In this document: piece after piece, positions 698-15,115 of the stretch
How the letters are laid out: every line of letters begins with the position of its first letter
How positions within the stretch are numbered: the first letter of the stretch is position 1
Assembly (NCBI GenBank): GCA_017618935.1
Contig: JAFZTG010000173.1
Span: 1-15,115 of the forward strand
DNA: 15,115 bases
Source of the DNA: Bacteroidales bacterium
Lineage (GTDB): Bacteria; Bacteroidota; Bacteroidia; Bacteroidales; UBA1715
Direction of reading: 5' to 3'
The notes under the pieces: generated by a model
Told to the model about the DNA's origin: nothing
What the model saw: only the letters and a program-made list of their open reading frames with translations
Database searches by the model: none
Translations under genes and position numbers: made by a program

Positions 698-745
698 GAA
701 TTTAATTACGTTGGTTTCGGAGATTGGCATTTGCTTTTTTCAACA

Positions 746-3700
746 ATGAAGAAATGGTTTTCAATAATCTTGTTTGTGTTGTGTTGTCAATGTTTGACGG
801 CACAATTCTACAATGGTTATCAACAAGATTTCGGGAAAAATCGGGTGCAGTTCGATGAAAAATTCTGGTTCTTTTTTCGCCACGAAAAATTCGACATTTA
901 TTTTGACAAAAATGGTCGCAATTTGGCGGAATTTGTTGCCCAAAACGTTGATTCCAACTATGCGGAAATCGCTCGTATCCTTGAATTTGAATATTCCCGA
1001 CGAATTGTTTTTGTGGTGTATAACACGTTGAGCGATTTTAGGCAAAGTAACATAGGATTTTCTACCTCGGAAGAAGATTACAACGTGGGAGGAACGACGC
1101 AAATAATTGATAATAAGGTGGTTCTCTATTTTTCGGGCGACCATGCCGATTTGATTCGTCAGATTCGGAAAGGACTTGCCGAAGTTATGATTAGTGAATT
1201 TTTGTATGGTGTTGGCTCATATAGGCGAATACTTTCAAATTCGGCGTTGGCTACCTATCCGCCTTGGTTTTTCGATGGTCTGACCGAGTATTTTTCGCAG
1301 AGTTGGTCATCGGGAAAACAAGATTATATTGTACAAAAGATTGCCGGTGGCTCGTATCGCAAGTTTTCACAATTATATGGCGACGATGCGATTGTGGTTG
1401 GACACGCATTTTGGAATTTCATGTCGGTGCAATATGGCGAGAAAACAATCTCCAACGTTTTGTATATGAGCAAATTGACTGGCGACATAGAGGCAAGTTT
1501 CCAGTACGTTATGGGCAAATCATTTCAGACGGTTTTGGCTGAAATGGCTACATTTTACAGCGCATTGAAACAAGATAATCCTGCAGGGCAGGAGGAACAA
1601 ATTGTTCCGATTCCCAAACGACTGACAAAACGAGTGATTTCCGATGTGGAACTGAACTCTGACGGCTCTAAAATGGTGTATGTAACGAACAAACTAGGGA
1701 AAACGGGCGTTTGGCTCTATGATTTTGACTCACAGAAAAATCAGAGGATATTTGCCATGGGGTCGGTTATCGAACAAATTACGGATTATTCGAATCCCAT
1801 TGTACAATGGCACCCCACACGAAATGCACTCTTGTTTTTTTACGAGAAAAAAGGAAAATTGTGGCTGGCAATCTACAATGCCGAGACAGAGGAATTGGTG
1901 ACACGAGAGTTTCATCATTTTGAAAAAGTGTTGGATTTTTCATTTTCACAGGATGGGCTAACCTTGATTTTTTCGGGCGTTCAGGGTGGCGTAACCGATA
2001 TTTTTACCTATAACATTCAAACGTTTGAATCAACGCAAATCACGAATGACAAGGCTGACGACCGCTATCCTTCGTTTGTGCAGAATGGAAACAAGATTTT
2101 GTACGTTTCCAATCGTGCCGACGACAATTTGCAAAATCAGTTTGTCGGTTTGCAATCTTCCTACGATTTGTTCCTCATTTCAGGTAAATCGTTGGAACGC
2201 ATAGCAACAACGCTCGCTTCGGAACAAAAACCTATGGAGGCGAAATCGGGCACATTTGTCTATCTTTCTACTACGGAAAATAACTCGGAATTGTTTGCCG
2301 TACAAATGGACAGTACCATCCGTGCCGTCGATACGGCGTTTCATTATTCCTATTTCACCAATGACTTTCAGTTGAAAAACACGTCGCAAAGCATTGTGAA
2401 TTATGCAGTTGCTGATTCCACTTTGTTGGAAGTAACTACCAAAAACAATCGTCAGTTTTTACAGTTGAAACGATTGGAAAAGCAAGATTTTGCGCCGATT
2501 CAACTTTTGCAAGACACGGCTGTTTCTCAACGATTGATTTCTCTTTTCGACACGCTTACCTACGAACGGGAAAATGCAAATTTGTATAAAACCAATTTCT
2601 ATATCAATTCCTTGGGTAATCAAATTGATTTCTCTTTTCTAAACACTGGCTATCAGGCGTTTACGGGTGGAGCATACGATTATACGCAGAATTTGAACGT
2701 GTTGCTGAAACTGGGAATCATCGATTTGTTTGAGGATTATCGTGTGACAGGCGCCTATCGTTTTACCGGTTCGTTGGGTACGAACGAATACCTCGTTTCA
2801 GTAGAAAATCTTCGCAAACGCCTTGACCGACAATATGTTTTCCATAGGCAATCGGGATTGACGTACGGCGTAAATTCCTCAAGGTATTTTACTCGTGTGC
2901 AGGACAATAATTTTATTTGTCGCTACAAATATCCCCTAGACCAGATTCGTTCTTTTTCGGTGAATCCCAATTTCCGTTTTGTACGAAATGTGACGTTGGC
3001 AACCGATATGAATTCGTTGCAGGAGCCGAACAATGACGAGTTCTGGATTGGTTTGTCGTGCAATTATGTGTTCGACAATGTTCGGAAACTGGACTTGAAC
3101 ATTTATAACGGAAGTCGGGCAAAAGTCTTTGCCGAAGGCTTTTCGCAACTTACTTCGAGCGATTCCTATTTGTTTGTCGTGGGTTTTGATGCCCGTCATT
3201 ATCAAAAAATCCATAGAAACTTGACATTGGCAGCACGTGTGGCATATAGCACTTCGTGGGGAACGTCGCCGTTGTTGTATTACTTAGGCGCCGTCGATAA
3301 CTGGATAAATTTGTTTGGGCGCTACGATACGTACAATTCATCCATTCAATACGACCATTCTGTTGATTGGGCATATCAGGCGATTGGTACCAATATGAGA
3401 GGTTTTTCTCAAAATATCCGTAATGGAAATTCATTTGCCGTTGCCAATGTGGAACTTCGCTGGCCTATAATCCAATACCTTACTTTACGACCTCTGAAAT
3501 CGGAGGTTTTGAAACATTTCCAAGTGATTGGCTTTGCCGACTTTGGCGGTGCGTGGAGCGGGCTGATTCCGGGTAAGAAGGAGAATGCGTACAACTATAC
3601 TATTATCAATCAGGAACCGATTTATGTGGAAATTGACGAGATGCGTCAACCATTTGTATGCGGTTACGGATTTGGGTTCCGCACCCGATTGTTTGGTTAT

Positions 3701-3784
3701 TTTGTTCGCTTTGATATTGCGTGGGGTTACGATGAAGGATACATTCAGAGAATGAATCAATTCTCGTTAGGATTGGATTTCTAA
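746..3784 (+). CDS. Outer-membrane beta-barrel protein with degenerate peptidase-like domain and TolB-like propeller
   Basis: This is a 1012-residue exported protein whose exact function I cannot name. A signal peptide (basic MKK, hydrophobic core, likely cut near residue 19 after LTA) is followed by a region at about 30-250 resembling the gluzincin/peptidase MA fold. A TolB-like WD40 propeller lies at roughly 295-560, with repeats such as VELNSDGSKMVYV (about 300), SFSQDGLTLIF and DRYPSFVQNGNKILYVSN (about 438). The C-terminal 400 residues are aromatic-rich with alternating strands and end in phenylalanine (SLGLDF), as expected for an outer-membrane barrel. The peptidase signature is lost: where HExxH is expected there is KGLAE (142-146), and the downstream Glu ligand is Asp177 in PWFFDGLTEY. 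I choose the ATG at 746 over the upstream in-frame TTG at 731 because it gives a clean signal peptide. Such TolB-like/barrel fusions are known in Bacteroidota; a role in envelope biogenesis or secretion is only inference. Confidence 0.85.
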   Translation: MKKWFSIILFVLCCQCLTAQFYNGYQQDFGKNRVQFDEKFWFFFRHEKFDIYFDKNGRNLAEFVAQNVDSNYAEIARILEFEYSRRIVFVVYNTLSDFRQSNIGFSTSEEDYNVGGTTQIIDNKVVLYFSGDHADLIRQIRKGLAEVMISEFLYGVGSYRRILSNSALATYPPWFFDGLTEYFSQSWSSGKQDYIVQKIAGGSYRKFSQLYGDDAIVVGHAFWNFMSVQYGEKTISNVLYMSKLTGDIEASFQYVMGKSFQTVLAEMATFYSALKQDNPAGQEEQIVPIPKRLTKRVISDVELNSDGSKMVYVTNKLGKTGVWLYDFDSQKNQRIFAMGSVIEQITDYSNPIVQWHPTRNALLFFYEKKGKLWLAIYNAETEELVTREFHHFEKVLDFSFSQDGLTLIFSGVQGGVTDIFTYNIQTFESTQITNDKADDRYPSFVQNGNKILYVSNRADDNLQNQFVGLQSSYDLFLISGKSLERIATTLASEQKPMEAKSGTFVYLSTTENNSELFAVQMDSTIRAVDTAFHYSYFTNDFQLKNTSQSIVNYAVADSTLLEVTTKNNRQFLQLKRLEKQDFAPIQLLQDTAVSQRLISLFDTLTYERENANLYKTNFYINSLGNQIDFSFLNTGYQAFTGGAYDYTQNLNVLLKLGIIDLFEDYRVTGAYRFTGSLGTNEYLVSVENLRKRLDRQYVFHRQSGLTYGVNSSRYFTRVQDNNFICRYKYPLDQIRSFSVNPNFRFVRNVTLATDMNSLQEPNNDEFWIGLSCNYVFDNVRKLDLNIYNGSRAKVFAEGFSQLTSSDSYLFVVGFDARHYQKIHRNLTLAARVAYSTSWGTSPLLYYLGAVDNWINLFGRYDTYNSSIQYDHSVDWAYQAIGTNMRGFSQNIRNGNSFAVANVELRWPIIQYLTLRPLKSEVLKHFQVIGFADFGGAWSGLIPGKKENAYNYTIINQEPIYVEIDEMRQPFVCGYGFGFRTRLFGYFVRFDIAWGYDEGYIQRMNQFSLGLDF

Positions 3785-3829
3785 ATATTTCTGCCCCATT
3801 CCATTCTTACAACAAGAACCTCAACAGCC

Positions 3830-5077
3830 CTACTCTTTCGGTTTCTTGTGATGAAAATGTTTGTGGGAGAATGGTTTATTTCCTTTTTTATGAAAATGCT
3901 TCTTCTTGGGTTTCGGCTGAATCTCTTTCCAAACGGGCGCTTCGCCTAATTCGGCAGGCAAAGGCAGTTTATTGACAGGACGTTCGATAAGTGCTTCAAT
4001 TTTTTGAAAACGTAAGATATCGCTTTCGCTGATAAACGTCACGGCTTCGCCCTTGGCATCGGCACGTGCAGTTCGTCCGACACGATGAACGTAATCGGCA
4101 GGGTCTTTGGGTACGTCGAAATTGATGACAAGATTGATACCTTTTATATCGATTCCTCGACTGAGGACGTCGGTGGCAACAAGAATCTTTGTCTGTTTTG
4201 CCTTGAATCGCAGCAAAACCTCTTCGCGTTCATTCTGTTCAAAATCCGACGAAATTCCCTCCACCGTCACCTTGCGAATCTTCTTCTTTATTGCCGAGAC
4301 AATGGAATGAATCATACGTTTGGTTGAGGTAAAGATAAGAATGCTGTCGTAATCGGGGTTTTGTTCCAATATGTGCGTTATCAAATCAACTTTTTGATAA
4401 GGATGAGCCATATAGGCAGACTGCGTAACTCCTTCTGCCGGCTTTGCTATGGCAATGGAAACCATTTTGGGATTGACCAGAATCGTGTTTGCCAATTTCC
4501 GTATTTCGGGAGCCATTGTCGCGCTAAACATCATCGTCTGTCGTTTGACAGGAATATAGCCCAAAATCTGTCGGATATCGTCAATAAAGCCCATATCGAG
4601 CATTCTGTCGGCTTCGTCCAACACAAGATGACGAATATGTTTCAAATTCACGTAACCAAGACGCAAATGAGCGATGAGTCGTCCTGGAGTGGCGATAATG
4701 ACATTTGTTCCTTCGGTAAACGCACGTTTTTGTTCGTCCCAATCCATTCCCTTGTCACCGCCATACACCGCCTTGCTCGTCGTGTCGGTGAAGTACGAGA
4801 ATCCTTGCATCTCTTGGTCAATTTGAATGGCGAGTTCTCGCGTCGGCACAATGATTAACGAGGTTAGACCGTGGGCTTCGTTTGTAATCAAATCTTGTAA
4901 GATGGGAATCAGAAATGTGGCAGTCTTTCCCGTTCCTGTTTGTGCACATGCAAGCACATCGTGTCCTTCCAATGCGAGGGGAATAGCTTGTTCCTGAATT
5001 GGCGAGGCCTTTTCAAACTTCATATACGAAATCGCCTCGAGTAATTTTTCGTCTATGTGTAACTCTTCAAATGTCAT
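3830..5077 (-). CDS. DEAD-box ATP-dependent RNA helicase, RhlE-like
   Basis: This 415-residue cytoplasmic enzyme uses ATP to unwind or remodel short RNA duplexes, typically in ribosome assembly, RNA decay or cold adaptation. All core motifs are intact: Q motif around Gln28, Walker A AQTGTGKT (45-52), PTRELA (78-83), TPGR (130-133), DEAD (154-157), SAT (185-187), and in the second RecA domain ILIFTST, ATDVLSRGID and HRVGRTAR. The core is followed by a short tail (about 380-415) rich in lysine and histidine, likely an RNA-binding extension. The short compact core and tail are most like RhlE, but CsdA/DbpA-type assignments cannot be excluded from sequence reading alone. The start ATG overlaps the rimO stop codon by one base (TAATG), so the gene is probably expressed from the rimO promoter by translational coupling. 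It converges on the outer-membrane protein gene, with 45 bases between the two stops. Confidence 0.96.
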   Translation of the reverse strand: MTFEELHIDEKLLEAISYMKFEKASPIQEQAIPLALEGHDVLACAQTGTGKTATFLIPILQDLITNEAHGLTSLIIVPTRELAIQIDQEMQGFSYFTDTTSKAVYGGDKGMDWDEQKRAFTEGTNVIIATPGRLIAHLRLGYVNLKHIRHLVLDEADRMLDMGFIDDIRQILGYIPVKRQTMMFSATMAPEIRKLANTILVNPKMVSIAIAKPAEGVTQSAYMAHPYQKVDLITHILEQNPDYDSILIFTSTKRMIHSIVSAIKKKIRKVTVEGISSDFEQNEREEVLLRFKAKQTKILVATDVLSRGIDIKGINLVINFDVPKDPADYVHRVGRTARADAKGEAVTFISESDILRFQKIEALIERPVNKLPLPAELGEAPVWKEIQPKPKKKHFHKKGNKPFSHKHFHHKKPKE

Positions 5078-6394: not shown

Positions 6395-6585
6395 CATTTT
6401 TTTATAAAACAATACCTTTTGCTCTCAAATGTTTTCCCTCTTTATTCATAAATTACGGAAACATGTGTAACAAGGCAGTATGATATTTACATAAATTAAC
6501 CTTAAGCTTTTGTTGCAATCAGGGAAAAAGGATTTTGGTATTGAAGATGGCAAGGTAAATCTCTAACAAAATTGATTAATTATAT
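6395..6585. other. AT-rich intergenic spacer between divergent transcription units
   Basis: This spacer separates the rimO promoter from the promoter of the giant surface-protein gene. It has no coding frame with convincing protein features, and I saw no clear hairpin, tRNA or repeat in it. It may hold regulatory sites for either gene. Confidence 0.5.
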
Positions 6586-6593
6586 TATATTTG
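6586..6593 (+). promoter_or_regulatory. Probable -7 element of the giant surface-protein gene
   Basis: TATATTTG matches TAnnTTTG exactly and is followed by GCATCGAC. Predicted transcription start is near 6600, 15-16 nt upstream of the ATG at 6616, the same leader length inferred for thyA and rimO. No good -33 box is visible; ATTG at 6571-6574 is too close. Confidence 0.55.
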
Positions 6594-6615: not shown

Positions 6616-9600
6616 ATGAAGAAGTTTTTATCTCTTATGCTGACGCTCACATTGTGCACAATAGTTTATGCACAAGCGCCTTGGAAGACAAACATTTTAA
6701 CAAATGGTAGTGCCGAAAGTGGAAACTTTGACGGCTGGACTAAAACTACGAATGGAGGCTCTGGCTGGGCTGTTGGTTTTGCTAATGAAGAATCAAATGC
6801 GTTCGTGTCAAGTTACTCTAACTGTGTGCTTACACAGGATATAGATCTTGAAGCAAAAGGTTTTTCTGCCACAGAACTCGATGGTGGTTGTAAAGCTATG
6901 TTGCAAGGGCATGCCTGCGGTGGTGTTTCTGGTACCAGCAAAGGTGTCATGAAAATGATTGTGTATTTGCTTGATGCAAATAAAAATGTTTTACAAACAG
7001 TAACATTGGTAGATATTACATTTACCACAGCTCCTGACTGGACTGAATATAACACACAGGCTGATTTACCAGTGGGTACACGATATGTTCGCTACCAAAT
7101 TACAGGTAAGGATGCAAAATTTTGGGCTGGACAGTATGGACCAAGATTCACCGGTATGGGGGTTCGTTTGTGCCAATCAAACGATGAATTTAAGTTTACC
7201 GTTACCAACGAAATGTATTCTAATGGTTCGGTAAAATGGATGGGTACCACAGAAATGGATCCTAATGGTAATTCTTCGATTGAAGTTGCTCCGGGAACAC
7301 CAGTTTCTTTTACCGTTACTCCTGATGTAGGTTGTGATTTTGTACGCTGTTCCGTAAAATATGCTTTGGGAAAAATCCCTGTCACTGAAAATGGTACAAC
7401 ATTAAGTTTTACCATGCCAACGAGTGAGGTGGTGATTTCTCCTGTATTTGAAAAAACAGAGGTGCCTTCTCTTAGTGTGGATGGATACTATAATATTTAT
7501 AATGAAAATACACTTAAGTGGTTTGCCAATCAGGTAAATAAAGGTAACAATACCATTAATGGTCGTTTGATGAACGATATAGACATGACTGGAAAACCTT
7601 TTACGCCTATTGGGCTTGGTACAATCTTGGAATATGATGTGTCAACATTAACTCAAAAGGGATTTGCTGGTACATTTGATGGTCAAGGTTATGCAATTCG
7701 TAATCTTACTATTGATGGAGTTAGGGGCGAAGTGGTTACTGGTTTCATAGGCAATCTTTCGGGTACAATTAAAAACACCGTATTTGTAAATTGTCGTTAC
7801 GACCAAGTAAATCAAGATGTTCGTTTTGGTGTTGTTGCAGGTGTTGTTCAACCTGGTGCTGTTGTAGAAAATTGTGGAGTAATAGGTTCCTCTATAAATG
7901 TATCAGGTCATATTGGAGGTGCTGTGGCAGGTGGTAACTATGGTGGTACAATAAGATATTGTTATACGTTTAATAATACGTTGCAAGCACATAGCAGAGT
8001 TGGTTATCTTGTGGGTGATAATGGAAACGATTCGAATACATTAATAGGTACTATTACTGATTGTATTAGTGATAATAAAATTGCAGGTACCACTTCGGAT
8101 GCCCACAAGGGAACGGTAACGAATTGTACGCCGAATTCAACACTGAAACTTGATGATGGATCGCTTGCCAATGCAATGTATGAAAAAAATACAGTATGGC
8201 GTCAGGAATTAGATGTGGATGCATTTCCTCGACCAAATGTCAATGGACCACGTGTATATCCGGCGCAGTGTGTTTCAAACAAGTATTCAAATAATTCATT
8301 GGCAGAATATGGCCATGTGTATGAAGCCGATGGGCATTGTTCTATATGTGGTGTTTTTGGATGTTTGCAAGTCAATGGTGTGTTTCAGATTGCCAACAAA
8401 GAAGATTTGGATTTCTTTAGTAGTTATGTAAACACCACTAATCAGTCGGCAAAAGCGGTACTTGTTGCAGATATTGTTTACAATGACAATTTATTTAATA
8501 AAATAACATTAGACAGTGTGAATGTGGCAACCGTGAATGAAGAAACTACGGTTTATACATGGCAACCAATAGCTGCTTTTACTGGTTCATTTGATGGGCA
8601 AGGACATAGCATTACGGGACTATATATCAATGTAGGGTCTCCTGCTGGTTTATTTGCGGATGCAGGAAGTGGTTCAACTATTGCGAATGTGGTTATAAAA
8701 GATTCATATATTCGAGGTGCGATTTGTGGTGGTATAGTGGCAAAAGCAGATGGTTCTACTATAACAAATTGTGCTATGGAGAATTCGTATGTTGTAGGTT
8801 CGAAAGCATCAGGAACAGGTGGTATAGTTGGTAATAGTGCTTCTGTAAACACAGTTATCCAATCTTGTTACAATACGGCTACAATATATAGTTCAAGGGC
8901 TGATGTTGGTGGTATTTTAGGCTATGGTTATGCAACTATAAACAATTGCTATAACCAAGGAACCGTGCATGGTAGCGTTAATGATACTGGTGGTATAGCG
9001 GGTGAGATAAGAAGTGGTTCTGTTGTCACAAACTGCTACAATTCAGGTGATGTTACTGCTCCTTCTTCCTATGTGGGTGGGATTGCTGGATACAATCCAT
9101 CAACAACAATTAGTAATTGTTATAGTGTAATGACTCCAAGAGTAGGTACTCAAAAATCTGTAGAGGAATTTGCCAGCGGTGAAGTTACATATTTGCTTAA
9201 TAACGGACAAAACGGAGTTTGGTTTCAAAAAATAGGAATCGATGCATTTCCTCATTTTAATGAAACTGGGGATAATACTGTATATCTTTCCAATACTACA
9301 TATACAAACACGCCTACCGACGACTTTTTGTATGGCGGAGGAACTGGTTCTAAAAACAATCCTTTCATTATACGAACCCGTGCTCACTTGGAGAAACTTG
9401 CCACCAAGGTTAATTCGGGTATTACGTATGAAGGTTACTATTTCCTTGTTGCAAACGACATAGATTTGACGACAGAACCATGGACACCTATTGGTAGATT
9501 TACTTCGGCTACCGATATAAAACCGTTTAGGGGTTGTTTTGATGGTGGAAACCATGTGATAGATCATTTGACTATTCAATCAACACAACTCGGGGCGGCA

Positions 9601-12600
9601 GGTTTGTTTGCAATGGTTCTTGGAGGAGAACTTCGGAATATCATCCTTACGAATGTAAATATAGAGCGTCCTATTAATGCAGATGCCTACTCTTTTGCCG
9701 GTGCAGTGGTTGCCCGTGCCAACTATGCTATTATAGAAAATTGCGAGGCGCGTAGTGGAAGCATTACTACTGGTTCAAGTAATGTAAATGCTGGTATTGC
9801 TGGTGCACTTGCAGGTGGAACGATGAGCAATTGTATCAACCGTCTGGATATTACATCATCAACAGGAGCCAATACAAACTACAATGGCGGTATTGTTGGT
9901 AGGGTTGAAGCAGGTATTGAATGGAATGGCTATACAAATCCGTATCCATCCAGCAGAGGCAACTCCTATATTCAAGATTGTCGTAACTATGGTAACGTAA
10001 CAACGGCAGGTTTCTACGCAGGTGGAATTGCGGCTCTGTTAAACAACACTTTTACGAGTTCGTATAAAGGTTATGTGGAACGATGTGCGAATGCCGGTAC
10101 TATTACTGCAAATGGTGGTGTCGGTGGTATAGTTGGTGAATTAACTACATACGGTGAAGTTAATTACAATGTGAATATTGGTTCTATTCGTAACTATTCT
10201 ACAACATCTACCACCTATAGATATGGAGGTATAGTTGGTTCTGTAAGTATCGATAATACTGGTATATATGGTAATTTGAATGCCGGCAATGTTACAACGA
10301 CGTCTTCTCAAGAAACCGGCGGTATTGTTGGTTGTGTTGGTTATGCGAGTCAAGAATATTATTACAACGCAGTACAACGAAATTTGAATGTGGCAGCAGT
10401 TTCTTCAACAGGAACTTATGTGGGAACCCTTGTTGGTAGAAATTCTAAATCTAAGCAAATTGGTGGTGGTATTACTAATTCTCAGGTTAAACTTCATCCA
10501 AATTGCGGAAGTGATTCAGATGCTGTAACATCTTCTTCTTGGGGATTGGGTGGTTTTGTTGAATTGCCGACCGTAGGCATTGCCGGTCTGAGACAACGCG
10601 GTTCTGCCCAATTAGGAAACCAGGATGAATATTTCCATTTTGAAGAAGGTCGTTATCCTTGTCCAAAGGGAATAGAAATGAGCGATATTGTTCGTGTTGC
10701 CACTACACCTGTCTATTTACAAGCAGATGAAATGTACAACACCGCAGGTTCTAAATCACCATCGTTTGCATACAATACCGATGTTGAGTTTAGTACAAAA
10801 AATGATTATATCGATTTTGAAGGTGGTACGGCAACATATGTAGGTGCTGGTGAGGAGGTCATCTATATTACATCTGGTGATGCCCAACGCTACCTTGATG
10901 TTGTTATTGCTTGGAATAAGTCTCGTAAATTGACAGTAACTTCCGCACAAGATCTTGCTGATTTGGCAACGGGTGTTAATGCAGGTTCAGCGAATGGTTT
11001 CAGCTATCATGGTGTAACTTTGCCAAAATATGCGGCAGGATGTACTTTCGTTCAAACATGCGATATAAAACGTGGTGTTCATACACCAATAGGTACTGCA
11101 ACGAATCCATTCCGTGGAACATACGATGGTGGTGGTCATAGCATAACAGGTTTGATTTGTGATACGCAAAATTCTTCGAGTGTAGGTCTTTTTGGTGCGG
11201 CATGCGATGGTGTGGTAATTAAAAATTTAAGTATAGATGGTTCCATAAAAGCATTACACACAGCTGCTGGCTTTGTAGGATTTACTAATTCGGGCTCACT
11301 TACTATCGAAAATTGTTCCAACAATGTCAATGTCGAAACCAAATCAAACACACAAAGTGGAGCTGCCGCTTTTGTTGGTAATGCAGGAAATACAAATGTT
11401 ACGATACGGAATTGCTACAACTCTGCTCAAATTTCATCTTCGGCTGATGGTTATTTGGCCGCAATTGCTAATAAACCAGATGAAGCAACTGGTTTGTTGA
11501 TTATAGAAAATGTACATAACTATGGTACAATTACGGGTGTGTTGAAAACGGGGGGTAATGCGTTTGCAAATAATGCAACGAAAATGACCAACTGTTACAT
11601 AAATATTACAAAAACAGCCACATTGAATACGGTCGCTACTGGTTTAACTCGTGCTACAGAAACAGACTTTAATAATGGTAAAGTGTGTTGGATGCTGAAC
11701 GGAATGCCAGAAACACGCAGTCAGTGCGAGGATGTGTTGTTTACACAAAATATTGACTTGCAAACTGGTGAACTTTGGCCTGTATTCAATAGTTTATATG
11801 TATATCCTAATGGAACGGATGCATTTACAAACATTCGTCCTGATGGTGAATATACTTTGAGTGAGTATATAGTTTATGACATAACGAATTTTCCCAAAGA
11901 CACGCTATTCCCAGCCGCAAACTTGTTGGCTTTTGCACCGGAAAATGCCACATGGAGTTACAATCAAACAGAGTATCTCCAAGTAGATTCCGTCACGAAT
12001 GGGTATGCCTATGTAACATCAAAAACCGATAAGGACCATGATAGTTGGATGGGTACAGAGGTAATAACATATTCCACTATAGTGCAGGATGCAGAAGGAA
12101 CGGTTATTCAAATTGATGTACCTATTAAATATGAAAAGAAATACATTAGCCCCAATGCTTCAACAGACTTAAAAGTATCATTGAGTGCATTTCGTACCGT
12201 AGGTACACCTAATGATTTGTTCCGTATTGATGCTACGGTTATTGGTCGTAGTAATGGAACGAGGTGGTCTCTTGTTAAGAAAGGAACATCAGAAGAATAT
12301 ACTAAGGTAATATTGAGTCAAAACTCATTTTGGCAAATCTTTAAAATTCCAGAGGTCGGTGACTATACGTTGACTTTTACAGCTACAAGTATAGATGAAG
12401 TAAATGGAGTCCAATCGTTCTCTGAGACTAAGGAACTTAGTGTTGTCGGTATAAGCAATCGTCAGCCACACGTTTGTTATGGTGAAAGCATTTCATTGGA
12501 AACTTATAGTCCTGGTTTTATTTGTAATTGGAGTAATGGAAGCTCATCAAGTTCAATTACTGTAAGTCCGACAGAAACAACTACGTATGTAGTTACAATG

Positions 12601-15115
12601 AATAATGGAGCTGCATTTATAGATACGGTAACTGTTAAGGTTTCTACACCTGTTAGCACAACTCCAAATTCATGTATTCACATTGGTAATACCATGGAGG
12701 TTGAAGCCGAAGGAAACTACGAAACATATTCGTGGTCAACTGGCGAAACAACTTCTTCCATTTCGGTTTCCGAGCCAGGTACATATACTGTTGAAACTGT
12801 TGATGCAGATGGTTGTACAAGTAGCGCTTCAACAGAAATATCGGTATATGGTATTACAACAACGGATTTGGCTATATGCTATGGTGAAAATATTACTTTG
12901 AATGCGGCGGCTTCTATGGATAGTGTTGTTTGGAATGACGCGAACAAAACACACAGTGAAACTGTTACGATAAACAATATGCTTGAAACGCAATCTGTTT
13001 CTGCAATATCATATAAAGATGGTGTCCCATATCTTGACGCAGTAACGGTTGTTGTTGGAAAACCTGTGTCATTCAACGATGTGCGTGCTATTTGTGATGG
13101 AGTTACCACCACTATTGCACCTATTGATGACTATGCAACATATAGTTGGGACAATGGTGATGGAACTGATGTGATAAGTACTCAAAGAAGCATAGTTGTC
13201 AGCGAAGCAAATACCTATCGTTTGACTGCAACGGATACACTCGGTTGCGAATCTTCACAAAGTGTTGTGTTGAATGTTGTACCAAAGCCAGTGGTTAATT
13301 TGGGTGAGGATAGAACTATCTGTTATGGCGACACTATCGTTTTTGATGCAGGTGCTGGTTTCTTGAAATATACCTGGTCGGCAACTCGCGACTTTGAAAC
13401 TGCAGAAACAAGCCGAACATTTATTGCCGACACCATTTTGATGCAGACAATTCATGGTTTTGGCAACGAACGTAAACTTTCCGTTGAGGTGCAAGACAAC
13501 TTTGGCTGTTCGAACAGCGACACAGTAGTCCTGACCTTCCGTTCTCGTCCAACAATTACCTTCGGTGAAGGAGGTTTGTATTGTGGTAAGGAAGAATCTG
13601 TTGCACCTACGTTCACTGTTTCGGGTGTCGCTCCGTTCCGATTTGCATATACCGACGGTGTAGAGCAATTCACAGAAGATTTTAGCGAAAAAACATTTAC
13701 TCCTACTGCTCCAGGTATCGGTGAATACACATATAGAATGAATACGTTGGAAGATGCGTATTGCTCGGCTGATACTACAAGTCAGACTACCATAGTAAAA
13801 GTTGTTGCGTTACCGACTGTGGAACTTGGTGCAGATACAACTCTGTGTTATGGCGAAAGTTTTACGTTAAATGTTCACAATGATGGTGCAACATATTCAT
13901 GGTTGCCATTACGTGACGGTGTTCACGCAGAGTTGAAGGATTCATATATCGTCGATACAGCTGTTGTAAACCATAATTTTCCGATATCAAATATTCAGGA
14001 AATTGTTGCCACTGTAACGAGTGAAGAAGGTTGTGTTGTAAAAGATACAGTTTTGGTGACATTTAAAGAACGTCCATCTGTTTCAGTTACAGGTTCAGCA
14101 ACATACTGCGGTCTTGATGAAGCACAAGGTGCAACATTCAATTTGAAAGGAACAGCACCGTTTACATTTACCTATACCGATGGTGAGGAAACAATGAATG
14201 TGGATTCATTGGAAACAGCATCGCTGCAGGCACAAAAACCAACAGCAGTTGGCGTATATGATTATTCTATTCTTTCATTGAAAGACGCAACATGTACAGC
14301 CGATCTTCAAATAAGTAAAGCACGCGTTGTTGTTGCCGAAATACCTGAGGTTGTTCTAGGTAACGATACAACATTGTGTTATGGCGAAGAACTTACATTA
14401 CAATTGAATGCTGAAGAAGGGGCTTCGTATGTATGGAGTCCTCGTCGTGACGGTGTTCACATTACTACTTCGGCGTCATTCCTTGTTGATACAGCAATTG
14501 TAAATAATAATTTCCCTATTTCAAACGTACAGGAAATTATTGCAACAAAAACAACATCTAATGGTTGTTCCGCAAGCGACACGATGACGGTGACATTCAA
14601 GGAACGTCCAAGTGCGACAATATCGGGTAGTGCAACATACTGCGGTACAGAAGGTGTTGAAGGCGTCACAATAATTTTGAAGGGAACAGCACCGTTTACT
14701 TTCGCCTATACAGACGGTGTAGAAACGACAACCGTAGATTCTCAGGATGAGGCGACGCTTCAAACGGCTGCTCCGACAGCAGTAGGTACCTACAACTATT
14801 CAATCGTATCGATGAAGGACGCATACTGTAGCGCCGACTACCAATCATCGAAGGCAAAGGTTGTCGTAGCCGAAATTCCAACGGTTTCTTTAGGAAATGA
14901 CACAACAGTATGCTATGGCGAAAGCGTGGTATTAAATGCTGGCTCAGAAGCAAAATGGTACGCTAACGGAAACTATGTAAGCCGTTCGTCGTCAATGGAG
15001 GTTGATACAGCCTTAATATATGCATACTATCCAAACAAGAACGAACAAGAGATTGTCGCTGTTGTCACGAATGCGGAGGGTTGTTCCGCAAGCGACACGA
15101 TGACGGTGACATTCA
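6616..15115 (+). CDS. Giant modular secreted surface protein (GLUG modules and Ig-like repeats), 3' end beyond window
   Basis: One open frame of at least 2833 codons runs from the ATG at 6616 to the window edge without a stop. In-frame TAA (6601) and TGA (6607) fix the ATG as the first possible start. The order is signal peptide (residues 1-19, cut in VYA|QA), N-terminal domain (20-186), InlB-B-repeat-like domain (about 187-280), GLUG module 1 (289-550), Cys-rich linker (551-583), GLUG 2 (584-891), GLUG 3 (906-1355), a small Ig-like insert, GLUG 4 (1436-1731), a beta-sandwich-like stretch (to about 1945), four short Ig-like repeats, then long tandem repeats from about residue 2227. GLUG motifs and Ig-like CYGE repeats are typical of very large extracellular adhesins in Bacteroidota, often exported by the type IX system. 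The diagnostic C-terminal sorting domain is outside the window, so the export route and function (adhesion, glycan or surface binding) are inference. No catalytic motif was recognised. Composition is rich in Thr, Asn, Gly and Ser. Confidence 0.93.
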   Translation, partial: MKKFLSLMLTLTLCTIVYAQAPWKTNILTNGSAESGNFDGWTKTTNGGSGWAVGFANEESNAFVSSYSNCVLTQDIDLEAKGFSATELDGGCKAMLQGHACGGVSGTSKGVMKMIVYLLDANKNVLQTVTLVDITFTTAPDWTEYNTQADLPVGTRYVRYQITGKDAKFWAGQYGPRFTGMGVRLCQSNDEFKFTVTNEMYSNGSVKWMGTTEMDPNGNSSIEVAPGTPVSFTVTPDVGCDFVRCSVKYALGKIPVTENGTTLSFTMPTSEVVISPVFEKTEVPSLSVDGYYNIYNENTLKWFANQVNKGNNTINGRLMNDIDMTGKPFTPIGLGTILEYDVSTLTQKGFAGTFDGQGYAIRNLTIDGVRGEVVTGFIGNLSGTIKNTVFVNCRYDQVNQDVRFGVVAGVVQPGAVVENCGVIGSSINVSGHIGGAVAGGNYGGTIRYCYTFNNTLQAHSRVGYLVGDNGNDSNTLIGTITDCISDNKIAGTTSDAHKGTVTNCTPNSTLKLDDGSLANAMYEKNTVWRQELDVDAFPRPNVNGPRVYPAQCVSNKYSNNSLAEYGHVYEADGHCSICGVFGCLQVNGVFQIANKEDLDFFSSYVNTTNQSAKAVLVADIVYNDNLFNKITLDSVNVATVNEETTVYTWQPIAAFTGSFDGQGHSITGLYINVGSPAGLFADAGSGSTIANVVIKDSYIRGAICGGIVAKADGSTITNCAMENSYVVGSKASGTGGIVGNSASVNTVIQSCYNTATIYSSRADVGGILGYGYATINNCYNQGTVHGSVNDTGGIAGEIRSGSVVTNCYNSGDVTAPSSYVGGIAGYNPSTTISNCYSVMTPRVGTQKSVEEFASGEVTYLLNNGQNGVWFQKIGIDAFPHFNETGDNTVYLSNTTYTNTPTDDFLYGGGTGSKNNPFIIRTRAHLEKLATKVNSGITYEGYYFLVANDIDLTTEPWTPIGRFTSATDIKPFRGCFDGGNHVIDHLTIQSTQLGAAGLFAMVLGGELRNIILTNVNIERPINADAYSFAGAVVARANYAIIENCEARSGSITTGSSNVNAGIAGALAGGTMSNCINRLDITSSTGANTNYNGGIVGRVEAGIEWNGYTNPYPSSRGNSYIQDCRNYGNVTTAGFYAGGIAALLNNTFTSSYKGYVERCANAGTITANGGVGGIVGELTTYGEVNYNVNIGSIRNYSTTSTTYRYGGIVGSVSIDNTGIYGNLNAGNVTTTSSQETGGIVGCVGYASQEYYYNAVQRNLNVAAVSSTGTYVGTLVGRNSKSKQIGGGITNSQVKLHPNCGSDSDAVTSSSWGLGGFVELPTVGIAGLRQRGSAQLGNQDEYFHFEEGRYPCPKGIEMSDIVRVATTPVYLQADEMYNTAGSKSPSFAYNTDVEFSTKNDYIDFEGGTATYVGAGEEVIYITSGDAQRYLDVVIAWNKSRKLTVTSAQDLADLATGVNAGSANGFSYHGVTLPKYAAGCTFVQTCDIKRGVHTPIGTATNPFRGTYDGGGHSITGLICDTQNSSSVGLFGAACDGVVIKNLSIDGSIKALHTAAGFVGFTNSGSLTIENCSNNVNVETKSNTQSGAAAFVGNAGNTNVTIRNCYNSAQISSSADGYLAAIANKPDEATGLLIIENVHNYGTITGVLKTGGNAFANNATKMTNCYINITKTATLNTVATGLTRATETDFNNGKVCWMLNGMPETRSQCEDVLFTQNIDLQTGELWPVFNSLYVYPNGTDAFTNIRPDGEYTLSEYIVYDITNFPKDTLFPAANLLAFAPENATWSYNQTEYLQVDSVTNGYAYVTSKTDKDHDSWMGTEVITYSTIVQDAEGTVIQIDVPIKYEKKYISPNASTDLKVSLSAFRTVGTPNDLFRIDATVIGRSNGTRWSLVKKGTSEEYTKVILSQNSFWQIFKIPEVGDYTLTFTATSIDEVNGVQSFSETKELSVVGISNRQPHVCYGESISLETYSPGFICNWSNGSSSSSITVSPTETTTYVVTMNNGAAFIDTVTVKVSTPVSTTPNSCIHIGNTMEVEAEGNYETYSWSTGETTSSISVSEPGTYTVETVDADGCTSSASTEISVYGITTTDLAICYGENITLNAAASMDSVVWNDANKTHSETVTINNMLETQSVSAISYKDGVPYLDAVTVVVGKPVSFNDVRAICDGVTTTIAPIDDYATYSWDNGDGTDVISTQRSIVVSEANTYRLTATDTLGCESSQSVVLNVVPKPVVNLGEDRTICYGDTIVFDAGAGFLKYTWSATRDFETAETSRTFIADTILMQTIHGFGNERKLSVEVQDNFGCSNSDTVVLTFRSRPTITFGEGGLYCGKEESVAPTFTVSGVAPFRFAYTDGVEQFTEDFSEKTFTPTAPGIGEYTYRMNTLEDAYCSADTTSQTTIVKVVALPTVELGADTTLCYGESFTLNVHNDGATYSWLPLRDGVHAELKDSYIVDTAVVNHNFPISNIQEIVATVTSEEGCVVKDTVLVTFKERPSVSVTGSATYCGLDEAQGATFNLKGTAPFTFTYTDGEETMNVDSLETASLQAQKPTAVGVYDYSILSLKDATCTADLQISKARVVVAEIPEVVLGNDTTLCYGEELTLQLNAEEGASYVWSPRRDGVHITTSASFLVDTAIVNNNFPISNVQEIIATKTTSNGCSASDTMTVTFKERPSATISGSATYCGTEGVEGVTIILKGTAPFTFAYTDGVETTTVDSQDEATLQTAAPTAVGTYNYSIVSMKDAYCSADYQSSKAKVVVAEIPTVSLGNDTTVCYGESVVLNAGSEAKWYANGNYVSRSSSMEVDTALIYAYYPNKNEQEIVAVVTNAEGCSASDTMTVTF
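6673..7173 (+). other. N-terminal domain of the giant protein, possible carbohydrate-binding-like beta-sandwich
   Basis: Residues 20-186 begin with NILTNGSAESGNFDGWT, a pattern common at the start of jelly-roll, CBM-like domains in secreted Bacteroidota proteins (N-G-x-x-E-x-G-x-F-x-G-W). Alternating hydrophobic strands follow, ending around MGVRLCQ. Ligand binding is a guess from the fold pattern; no binding residues can be named. Confidence 0.45.
7174..7461 (+). other. InlB-B-repeat-like / bacterial repeat domain of the giant protein
   Basis: The segment reads as FTVTNEMYSNGSVKW, then a VAPGTPVSFTVTPDVGCDF block, then FTMPTSEVVISPVFE. The order of a G-T-x-V-x-x-T-x-x-P-x-x-G-x-x-F block and a closing TMPxSxVxxxxxFE strand is typical of the small bacterial repeat domains that act as spacers in surface proteins. 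Confidence 0.6.
7480..8265 (+). repeat. GLUG beta-helix module 1
   Basis: The module opens with YYNIYNENTLKWFANQVNKG, then NDIDM, FTPIGLG and FAGTFDGQGYAIRNLTI. About four degenerate GLUG-like rungs follow (GFIGNLSGTIKN, GVVAGVVQPGAVVENC, GGAVAGGNYGGTIRYC, GYLVGDN...GTITDC). It closes with a cap of the form DGSLANAMYEKNTVWRQ, DAFPRP and VYP. The header, rung and cap order recurs in the next modules. A right-handed beta-helix fold is inferred from known GLUG proteins. Confidence 0.75.
8266..8364 (+). other. Cysteine-rich linker between GLUG modules 1 and 2
   Basis: This 33-residue linker contains cysteines at residues 552, 575, 578 and 583, including HxYxxDGHCSICG (His567 and His574 nearby). 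The CxxC with flanking His and Cys could bind a metal or form disulfides. Similar GxCxxCG linkers precede GLUG modules in other Bacteroidota proteins as I recall them, so it may be a standard element. Confidence 0.55.
8365..9288 (+). repeat. GLUG beta-helix module 2
   Basis: This is the cleanest GLUG module. The header is VFQIANKEDLDFFSSYVN, then WQPIAAFTGSFDGQGHSITGL and GLFADAG. Five rungs follow: GGIVAKADGSTITNC, GGIVGNSASVNTVIQSCYN, GGILGYGYATINNCYN, GGIAGEIRSGSVVTNCYN and GGIAGYNPSTTISNCYS. The cap is SVEEFASGEVTYLLNNGQ, VWFQ, DAFPHF and TVYL. Rungs are spaced about 25-30 residues apart. Confidence 0.85.
9331..10680 (+). repeat. GLUG beta-helix module 3, the longest
   Basis: The header YGGGTGSKNNPFIIRTRAHL is followed by LVANDIDLTTEPWTPIGRF and FRGCFDGGNHVIDHLTI. 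Then come about eight or nine rungs (AGAVVARANYAIIENC, AGIAGALAGGTMSNC, GGIVGRVEAG, GGIAALLNN, GGIVGELTTYGEV, GGIVGSVSIDNTG, GGIVGCVGY, GTLVGRNSKS), ending near 10450. The remaining 75 residues lack GLUG motifs and do not show the DAFP-type cap of modules 1 and 2; instead they end with EEGRYPCPKGIE. Confidence 0.75.
10681..10914 (+). other. Small Ig-like insert between GLUG modules 3 and 4
   Basis: About 78 residues with strand-rich, Ig-like character (DIVRVATTPVYLQADEMYN ... FEGGTATYVGAGEEVIYITSG ... YLDVVIAW). It resembles bacterial Ig-like spacers, with a final strand leading straight into the module 4 header. It cannot be assigned to a named family by eye. Confidence 0.4.
10921..11808 (+). 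repeat. GLUG beta-helix module 4, divergent
   Basis: The header is KLTVTSAQDLADLATGVNAG, then HTPIGTATNPFRGTYDGGGH and GLFGAACDGVVIKNLSI. Five divergent rungs follow (GFVGFTNSGSLTIENCS, AFVGNAGNTNVTIRNCYN, ENVHNYGTITG and others). The cap is TRATETDFNNGKVCWMLNG, then LWPVFNSLYVYP. The header and cap make the common origin with modules 1-3 clear, although the GGIVG core has drifted. Confidence 0.75.
11809..12450 (+). other. Beta-sandwich-like stretch of unknown family in the giant protein
   Basis: About 214 residues without cysteine or GLUG motifs, probably two Ig-like beta-sandwich domains. The second ends with IPEVGDYTLTFTATSID and FSETKELSVV, a typical closing strand pair of secreted Ig-like domains. 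It connects the beta-helix part to the Ig-like repeats. Confidence 0.4.
12451..13284 (+). repeat. Four short Ig-like repeats (66-76 residues each)
   Basis: First cysteines lie at 12475, 12673, 12877 and 13093, with the next, in the long repeats, at 13321. Spacings are therefore 198, 204, 216 and 228 bases. The units share a start like CYGE, a central W-S/N/D-x-G or related core (CNWSNG, YSWSTGE, VVWNDAN, YSWDNGDG), a TxxYxV/L strand, and in two of them a closing GCxSS. These are the Ig-like, SprB-type repeats common in Bacteroidota surface proteins. Confidence 0.75.
13294..15115 (+). repeat. Long tandem repeats, three full units and a cut fourth
   Basis: Units begin at VxLGxDxTxCYGE-like starts at 13294, 13819, 14350 and 14884, giving periods of 525, 531 and 534 bases (175, 177 and 178 residues). 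Each unit has an alpha module (CYGE ... GCxxxDT ... VTFxxRP) and a beta module (YCG ... GTAPFTFxYTDG ... PTAVGxYxYSI ... DAxCxAD ... VVxxxP). Units 2 and 3 are much closer to each other than to unit 1. Unit 4 is cut by the window edge after its alpha module. The repeats probably form a rod that extends the protein away from the cell. Confidence 0.9.

Follow-up and report, generated by a model that had tools for sequence, protein, structure and literature searches.

What kind of protein requires a reading frame that fills more than half of a 15-kb contig and runs off its end? The contig in question, JAFZTG010000173.1 of a Bacteroidales bacterium (UBA1715; assembly GCA_017618935.1), is 15,115 nt long and was analysed whole (hereafter the window; all positions are those of the window and the giant gene and its parts lie on its + strand). 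A sequence-only reading had proposed that one giant open reading frame (ORF) runs from the ATG at 6616 to the window edge, that it is a real gene and that the full protein is well over 3000 residues long. We reproduce the frame: 6616..15114 holds 2833 codons without a stop, the 3' end lying past the edge. The giant ORF is a genuine coding gene and not a chance opening, because the remaining five frames across this stretch contain 86-234 stops apiece, G+C by codon position is 0.47/0.46/0.28 (the third position having 0.28), and the ratio of nonsynonymous to synonymous divergence (dN/dS) stays within 0.16-0.48 in all 27 comparisons made (nine regions, each against the relatives G006, G001 and G014). 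A protein search with the giant gave 2346 matches, and among the best 120, which we considered, there are at least eight close homologues (P0002-P0009) of 3290-3814 aa, 81-88% identical to the window protein across its first 1000 residues; two of them are labelled 'T9SS type A sorting domain-containing protein' at source. Among the eight, P0006 belongs to G006 and P0009 to G001, Bacteroidales metagenome-assembled genomes (MAGs) from water buffalo rumen (locus L006) and yak reticulum (locus L001), and a third genome, G014, has a giant-family ORF of 3476 aa, so that the predicted length is borne out by relatives. The sequence-only reading also called the gene one of the largest of its genome; in G001, the closest relative, the giant has 3491 aa and three other open frames are longer (3526, 3698 and 3704 aa). 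An apparent open frame of 25,041 aa in one relative was mostly masked N and was dropped.

We think it fairly probable that this gene encodes a giant fibrillar surface adhesin of gut Bacteroidales, tipped by a lectin and exported by the type IX secretion system (T9SS); its bearer is an uncultured, probably ruminant-gut Bacteroidales bacterium. The argument begins at the N-terminus. The signal peptide (residues 1-19, 6616..6672) is assigned by inspection only, from Lys-Lys, a hydrophobic core and small residues ahead of Gln, and it is followed by an FBA (F-box associated) lectin domain (residues 18-183, 6667..7164) that scores 60.1 bits with PF04300 against a cut-off of 32.4. Compared with PDB sequences, the solved relatives of this part are FBXO2, FBXO6 and FBXO44. 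Its AlphaFold2 model (pLDDT 92.2) has the Fbs jelly-roll fold, and the top structure matches (Foldseek, VIA) are Fbs proteins. FBA lectins are the intracellular sensors by which animal cells route misfolded N-glycoproteins to destruction, and a front end resembling their sugar-binding part is unusual in bacteria. With FBXO2 and FBXO6 the giant shares sequence family, predicted fold and, in the case of FBXO6, the aromatic trio described below. Unlike them it has no F-box, either among the eight Pfam matches of the window part at E 0.1 or in the precomputed Pfam lists of P0002-P0009; its putative signal peptide points outside the cell; and its FBA domain is the head of a giant protein, whereas FBXO2 and FBXO6 are ubiquitin-ligase adaptors.

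Would such a head bind sugar? GlcNAc2-core glycans (GlcNAc, N-acetylglucosamine) are found in the gut on host, plant, fungal and ciliate glycoproteins. Alignment to the solved relatives places Tyr67 (6814..6816) where Fbs1 has Phe177, and Phe169-Trp170 (7120..7125) where Fbs1 has Tyr279-Trp280 (PMC4603797; this and the other papers cited here are used from the excerpts available). Aromatic residues thus stand at all three Fbs1 positions, and the trio, Tyr-Phe-Trp, is that of FBXO6. This likeness suggests that the head binds GlcNAc2-containing glycan cores. The protein would then most likely be an adhesin gripping GlcNAc-containing glycans, and a plausible ligand would be the Man3GlcNAc2 core found in eukaryotic N-glycans, whether the glycoprotein comes from the host, its diet, ciliates or fungi. 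Against this stands FBXO44, which retains similar pocket residues yet binds no sugar and binds protein instead, so the trio is not sufficient (PMC4603797). The same fact favours an alternative in which the surface protein is as we describe it but the FBA ligand is not an N-glycan: it could be a peptidoglycan- or chitin-like GlcNAc polymer, a plant polysaccharide or a protein. The jelly-roll fold is common, by structure matches, to the carbohydrate-binding modules CBM16, CBM22 and CBM61, the CBM16 and CBM22 folds bind plant polysaccharide, and FBA domains occur in one archaeal and in other prokaryotic proteins whose habitats may be without N-glycans. We regard this alternative as a real if somewhat unlikely contender.

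Behind the head, the sequence-only reading had given the order signal peptide, GLUG modules, immunoglobulin-like (Ig-like) repeats. That order holds, but the reading had overlooked the FBA lectin, an InlB-like domain, the varying count of stalk units and the exchange of the gene across species (below). The InlB-like domain is a divergent InlB B-repeat (PF18998, residues 222-281, 7279..7458) that scores 29.8 bits against a cut-off of 23.6 as a piece alone and 22.4 bits, slightly under the cut-off, on the whole protein. The suggested Pfam check for GLUG (PF07581) likewise succeeds in part: residues 560-885 (8293..9270) scored alone reach 43.8 bits over 5 stretches, whereas the whole protein gives 13.6 bits against a cut-off of 20.5. 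GLUG-like text also occurs near residues 283-560, 886-1300 and 1481-1710, with no Pfam match above cut-off there. This block is predicted to form a beta-solenoid (AlphaFold2 pLDDT 88.2), and among PDB structures it comes closest to 3n6z, from a putative Bacteroides ovatus IgA1 protease, with a TM of 0.67 by query length. The giant shares a GLUG beta-solenoid shaft with GLUG-containing giants and with the IgA1-protease N-terminal region (PF07581, PF05342; 3n6z); the difference is that no protease family lies above cut-off in the window's part of the giant, and none appears among the Pfam matches listed for the eight homologues.

The Ig-like repeats, also foreseen by that reading, form a stalk (13288..15114) of alternating modules, recovered by hidden Markov models (HMMs) built from the repeats themselves and by Pfam (Ig_Pom152 45 bits, Ig_7 33.8 bits). 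The A modules occupy residues 2225-2309, 2399-2484, 2576-2662 and 2754-2833, and the B modules residues 2311-2396, 2486-2575 and 2664-2753, with A-module starts spaced 172-178 residues from about residue 2225. Kinship with nucleoporins, which the POM152 and Pom152-like Pfam matches might suggest, we set aside, reading these matches as probably generic Ig folds. Near the edge, 14875..15114 is the start of a variable 172-aa stalk unit: 79 of its 80 residues are identical to a variable unit of P0004, as against 36 of 76 for the unit following in P0002, which has no variable unit. Extra copies of this unit number 0 in P0002 and P0007, 1 in P0005, P0006, P0009 and G014, 2 in P0004 and 3 in P0003 and P0008; these counts describe variation between assemblies, not within one strain, and metagenome assemblies may miscount repeats. 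Where a protein has two or more copies, as three proteins do, these are 85-97% identical to one another. The window ends within the variable unit and therefore holds at least one, which gives an expected length of about 3467 aa or more.

How would the protein reach the surface? The type IX C-terminal sorting domain for which the sequence-only reading had proposed a search, TIGR04183, is present in 8 of 8 long homologues at 25.1-29.9 bits (cut-off 23), at a position past the window edge; the NCBIfam scan of the window protein, whose C-terminal tail is cut off, gave no match. The T9SS translocon SprA (TIGR04189) is found in 5 of 5 relatives, 3 giant-bearing genomes among them, and in none of 14 control genomes. 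In each of these five relatives TIGR04183 finds 46-75 matches (E up to 0.001); it also matches in 2 of the 14 controls, above cut-off in one of them. T9SS cargo is exported across the outer membrane, loses its tail and is attached to lipopolysaccharide or released (PMC10202324). By this route the signal peptide would take the giant across the inner membrane and T9SS would take it across the outer one, the tail being removed and the protein attached to lipopolysaccharide or released. Held near its C-terminus by T9SS attachment, it would probably point its N-terminus outward, and attachment would set the FBA head at the free tip. From the tip inward the order would be FBA jelly-roll lectin, InlB-like domain, GLUG beta-solenoid shaft and Ig-like stalk, with the length of the stalk shifting in steps of 172 aa.

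A mainly structural protein (a surface coat or a biofilm matrix filament), or a released one, could be built from the same parts, with the FBA head minor or vestigial. Some T9SS cargo does go into the medium (PMC10202324), and the rest of the matches listed, P0010-P0121, are long proteins for which no FBA domain is listed, and many of them have GLUG. The head is, however, retained in 8 of 8 long homologues and in G014, and it is under constraint; we judge this structural role unlikely and keep to the adhesin.

Where does an FBA head on a bacterial protein come from? Within the family of G001, 3 of 14 genomes (G001, G006, G014) have an FBA match above cut-off; so do 3 of 393 genomes sampled from its order (G001, G045, G091) and 1 of 395 sampled from the phylum (G001 itself, G637 matching below cut-off), with 0 of 14 controls in each case. 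When the FBA part alone was searched against 364 candidates, proteins 0.55-1.75 times as long as the window protein and sharing words with it, only the eight homologues matched. A search with G045's 236-aa FBA protein gives 44 proteins (P0122-P0165): 8 counted as eukaryotic, of which 7 have an F-box domain and 1 is named as fish FBXO2-like, and 36 others, including one from an archaeal MAG and one from a deltaproteobacterial MAG. The T9SS tail (PF18962) is present in 11 of the 36, and 4 of these 11 have a Kunitz domain. Several proteins of the P0122-P0165 set have signal-like starts where read, and in several the C-terminal end is a hydrophobic segment with basic residues. No FBA match was found at E 0.01 in either the phage or the plasmid collection. 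Alignment A2 holds 31 chosen rows, T9SS-tailed short proteins and some others being excluded.

In a tree of 52 FBA sequences (3 of 55, with fewer than 130 model positions, were excluded), the giants form one branch with the FBA protein of G091 (support 100/99) and the 8 eukaryotic rows form another (98/99); the head therefore probably derives from a prokaryotic FBA stock and not from a recent host gene. The rival, recent capture from an animal host or a rumen protist, draws on the facts that animals are where FBA is best known, that it is very rare in sampled Bacteroidota, and that G001 and G006, both with the gene, come from the ruminant gut. We hold it to be highly improbable: besides the separate branches, prokaryotic FBA is diverse, and identity with bovine FBXO6 is only 30%. 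The tree does not support capture, though it has long branches (G091, P0151, P0155, P0150), no protist rows and no inferred root. In this tree the G091 protein (L053:8686-10983, 765 aa, FBA above cut-off) is more closely related to the giants' head than any other protein beyond their own group, and by inspection it has a signal peptide, several InlB-like repeats and a T9SS-like end.

Comparison with the neighbouring genes raises a further question, namely how the giant itself has travelled. The window's neighbours thyA, a TolB-like protein gene, a DEAD-box helicase gene and rimO have protein identities of 95-99% to G001 and 68-94% to G006 and G014. Across five genome pairs (window-G006, window-G014, G001-G006, G001-G014 and G006-G014), these four genes are saturated at synonymous sites or have dS above 2 in 20 of 20 comparisons, whereas the giant gene, over its first 2740 residues, has dS 0.30-0.48 in all five. 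Because of this difference, the five pairs point to transfer or recombination of the giant between species. Protein identity between window and G006 is higher for the giant (85.1%) than for helicase (82.6%) or rimO (79.8%), and between window and G014 the giant's DNA identity is 82.8% against 72.4% for rimO. Two comparisons weigh against transfer. Protein identity between window and G014 is lower for the giant (78.5%) than for rimO (82.3%) and helicase (83.4%), and between window and G001 the giant's dS of 0.345 falls inside the range of the four neighbours (0.147-0.518), so that plain descent fits that pair at synonymous sites; dN for the same pair is 0.094, against 0.006-0.024 for the neighbours.

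The alleles are themselves mosaics, with segment identities of 74-100% between the members of the compared pairs (alignment A1; 11 rows, 2 of them duplicates, P0006 = G006 and P0009 = G001), a sign of recombination between lineages. P0003 and P0005 are 80-82% identical in the first 500 alignment columns and 98-100% identical in columns 1001-2500; P0005 and P0006 are 98% identical in columns 251-750, 78% in 1751-2000 and 99% in 2501-3000. The shared sequence has sharp ends. Upstream, similarity starts by eye in four genomes at a promoter -7-like box, TATATTTG (6586..6593), about 36 bases ahead of the ATG and conserved in the upstream alignment of window, G006, G001 and G014; we read it as a promoter box by comparison with the Bacteroidota -7 consensus, TAnnTTTG. 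Downstream, similarity stops by eye a few bases past the stop codon in three genomes, the window being cut. Readable flanking genes differ: G001 has genes for a sigma factor and an AAA_14/DUF4143 ATPase there, G006 has those for glutamine synthetase III and an aminotransferase, and the window has rimO; the G014 contig begins 590 bases upstream of its giant gene. Two accounts of the exchange may be given. Insertion of the giant gene as a unit fits; we prefer recombination that homogenises resident copies placed at different sites by genome rearrangement, because it would account both for the mosaic alleles and for similarity stopping just where the shared sequence does. A mobile element carrying the giant was considered and set aside: the flanking genes named by family searches are ordinary and by eye nothing is shared past promoter and stop codon, no systematic transposase or integrase search having been made.

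The different flanks could also mean that the window is a chimeric assembly in which the giant was wrongly joined to rimO. In G001, which is so similar in the four neighbour proteins, ribBA lies upstream of rimO and the giant gene is on a different contig. However, the giant ORF is a single open gene in three genomes, the helicase, ribBA and HtpG-like genes are not found beside rimO in L002-L005 either, so that gene order here is loose. We consider a chimera improbable, and at the rimO junction it would leave the giant gene unaltered.

The data show the gene, its domains, the predicted fold, the T9SS tail of the homologues, a T9SS component in relatives, the variation of the stalk and the exchange across species; display at the surface, sugar binding and the precise ligand are deductions from these. 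By itself a giant GLUG/Ig-like T9SS protein is ordinary; what distinguishes this one within fibrillar adhesins is the Fbs-type head, the variable stalk and the between-species exchange. RemA of Flavobacterium johnsoniae has a lectin domain of another kind than FBA. In our analysis RemA, a mobile T9SS type A surface lectin (PMC10202324), is the closest functional precedent; the giant, by the type A tail of its homologues and its proposed lectin role, would likewise be T9SS type A cargo that acts as a lectin. Fibrillar adhesins and Periscope proteins likewise combine an adhesive head with repeated stalk domains, near-identical repeats varying in number (PMC8286594, PMC9210967, PMC8201768), and Bacteroidetes fibrillar adhesins with Por_Secre_tail or CHU_C anchors are described (PMC8286594). 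The giant's stalk resembles that of periscope proteins (PMC8201768), with the difference that its variation is seen between assemblies and not within a strain. Neither F-box nor PF04300 is mentioned in the available excerpts of PMC8286594 and PMC9210967, nor F-box, FBA or FBXO in those of a human-microbiome lectin survey (PMC9166713), and among the papers listed in searches of open-access literature none has prokaryotic FBA as its subject (judged by title or abstract start).

Taken jointly, the data allow a tentative picture, which as a whole we hold with much less confidence than the adhesin reading: a giant T9SS adhesin of the periscope type would carry at its tip an Fbs-family lectin that reads the Man3GlcNAc2 core of eukaryotic N-glycans; its gene, a precise promoter-plus-ORF unit with recombining alleles, would circulate between species; and it would belong to a wider, essentially uncharacterised family of secreted prokaryotic FBA proteins, which may predate the animal ubiquitin-ligase lectins or have given rise to them. 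FBA domains on proteins apparently secreted by bacteria and an archaeon offer a direct test of FBA origin. If the picture is true, gut bacteria would be able to hold eukaryotic N-glycans by their invariant core, and prokaryotic FBA heads may furnish new N-glycan capture reagents, as which human Fbs1 has already been engineered (PMC5457524). A 10-kb surface gene common to several species without its flanks bears, in turn, on how Bacteroidota surface proteins diversify.

Two minor observations concern the neighbours. The TolB-like/PD40 protein (about 1013 aa, 731-3784) adjoins thyA, a pair also adjacent in G001, G006, G014, G005 and G002, and by inspection its C-terminal half has the look of an outer-membrane barrel. 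Gene order relative to G001 breaks at 3784-3830 and 6402-6580, flanking the helicase-rimO pair, and at these breaks G001 has ribBA on one side and, on the other, an HtpG-like gene.
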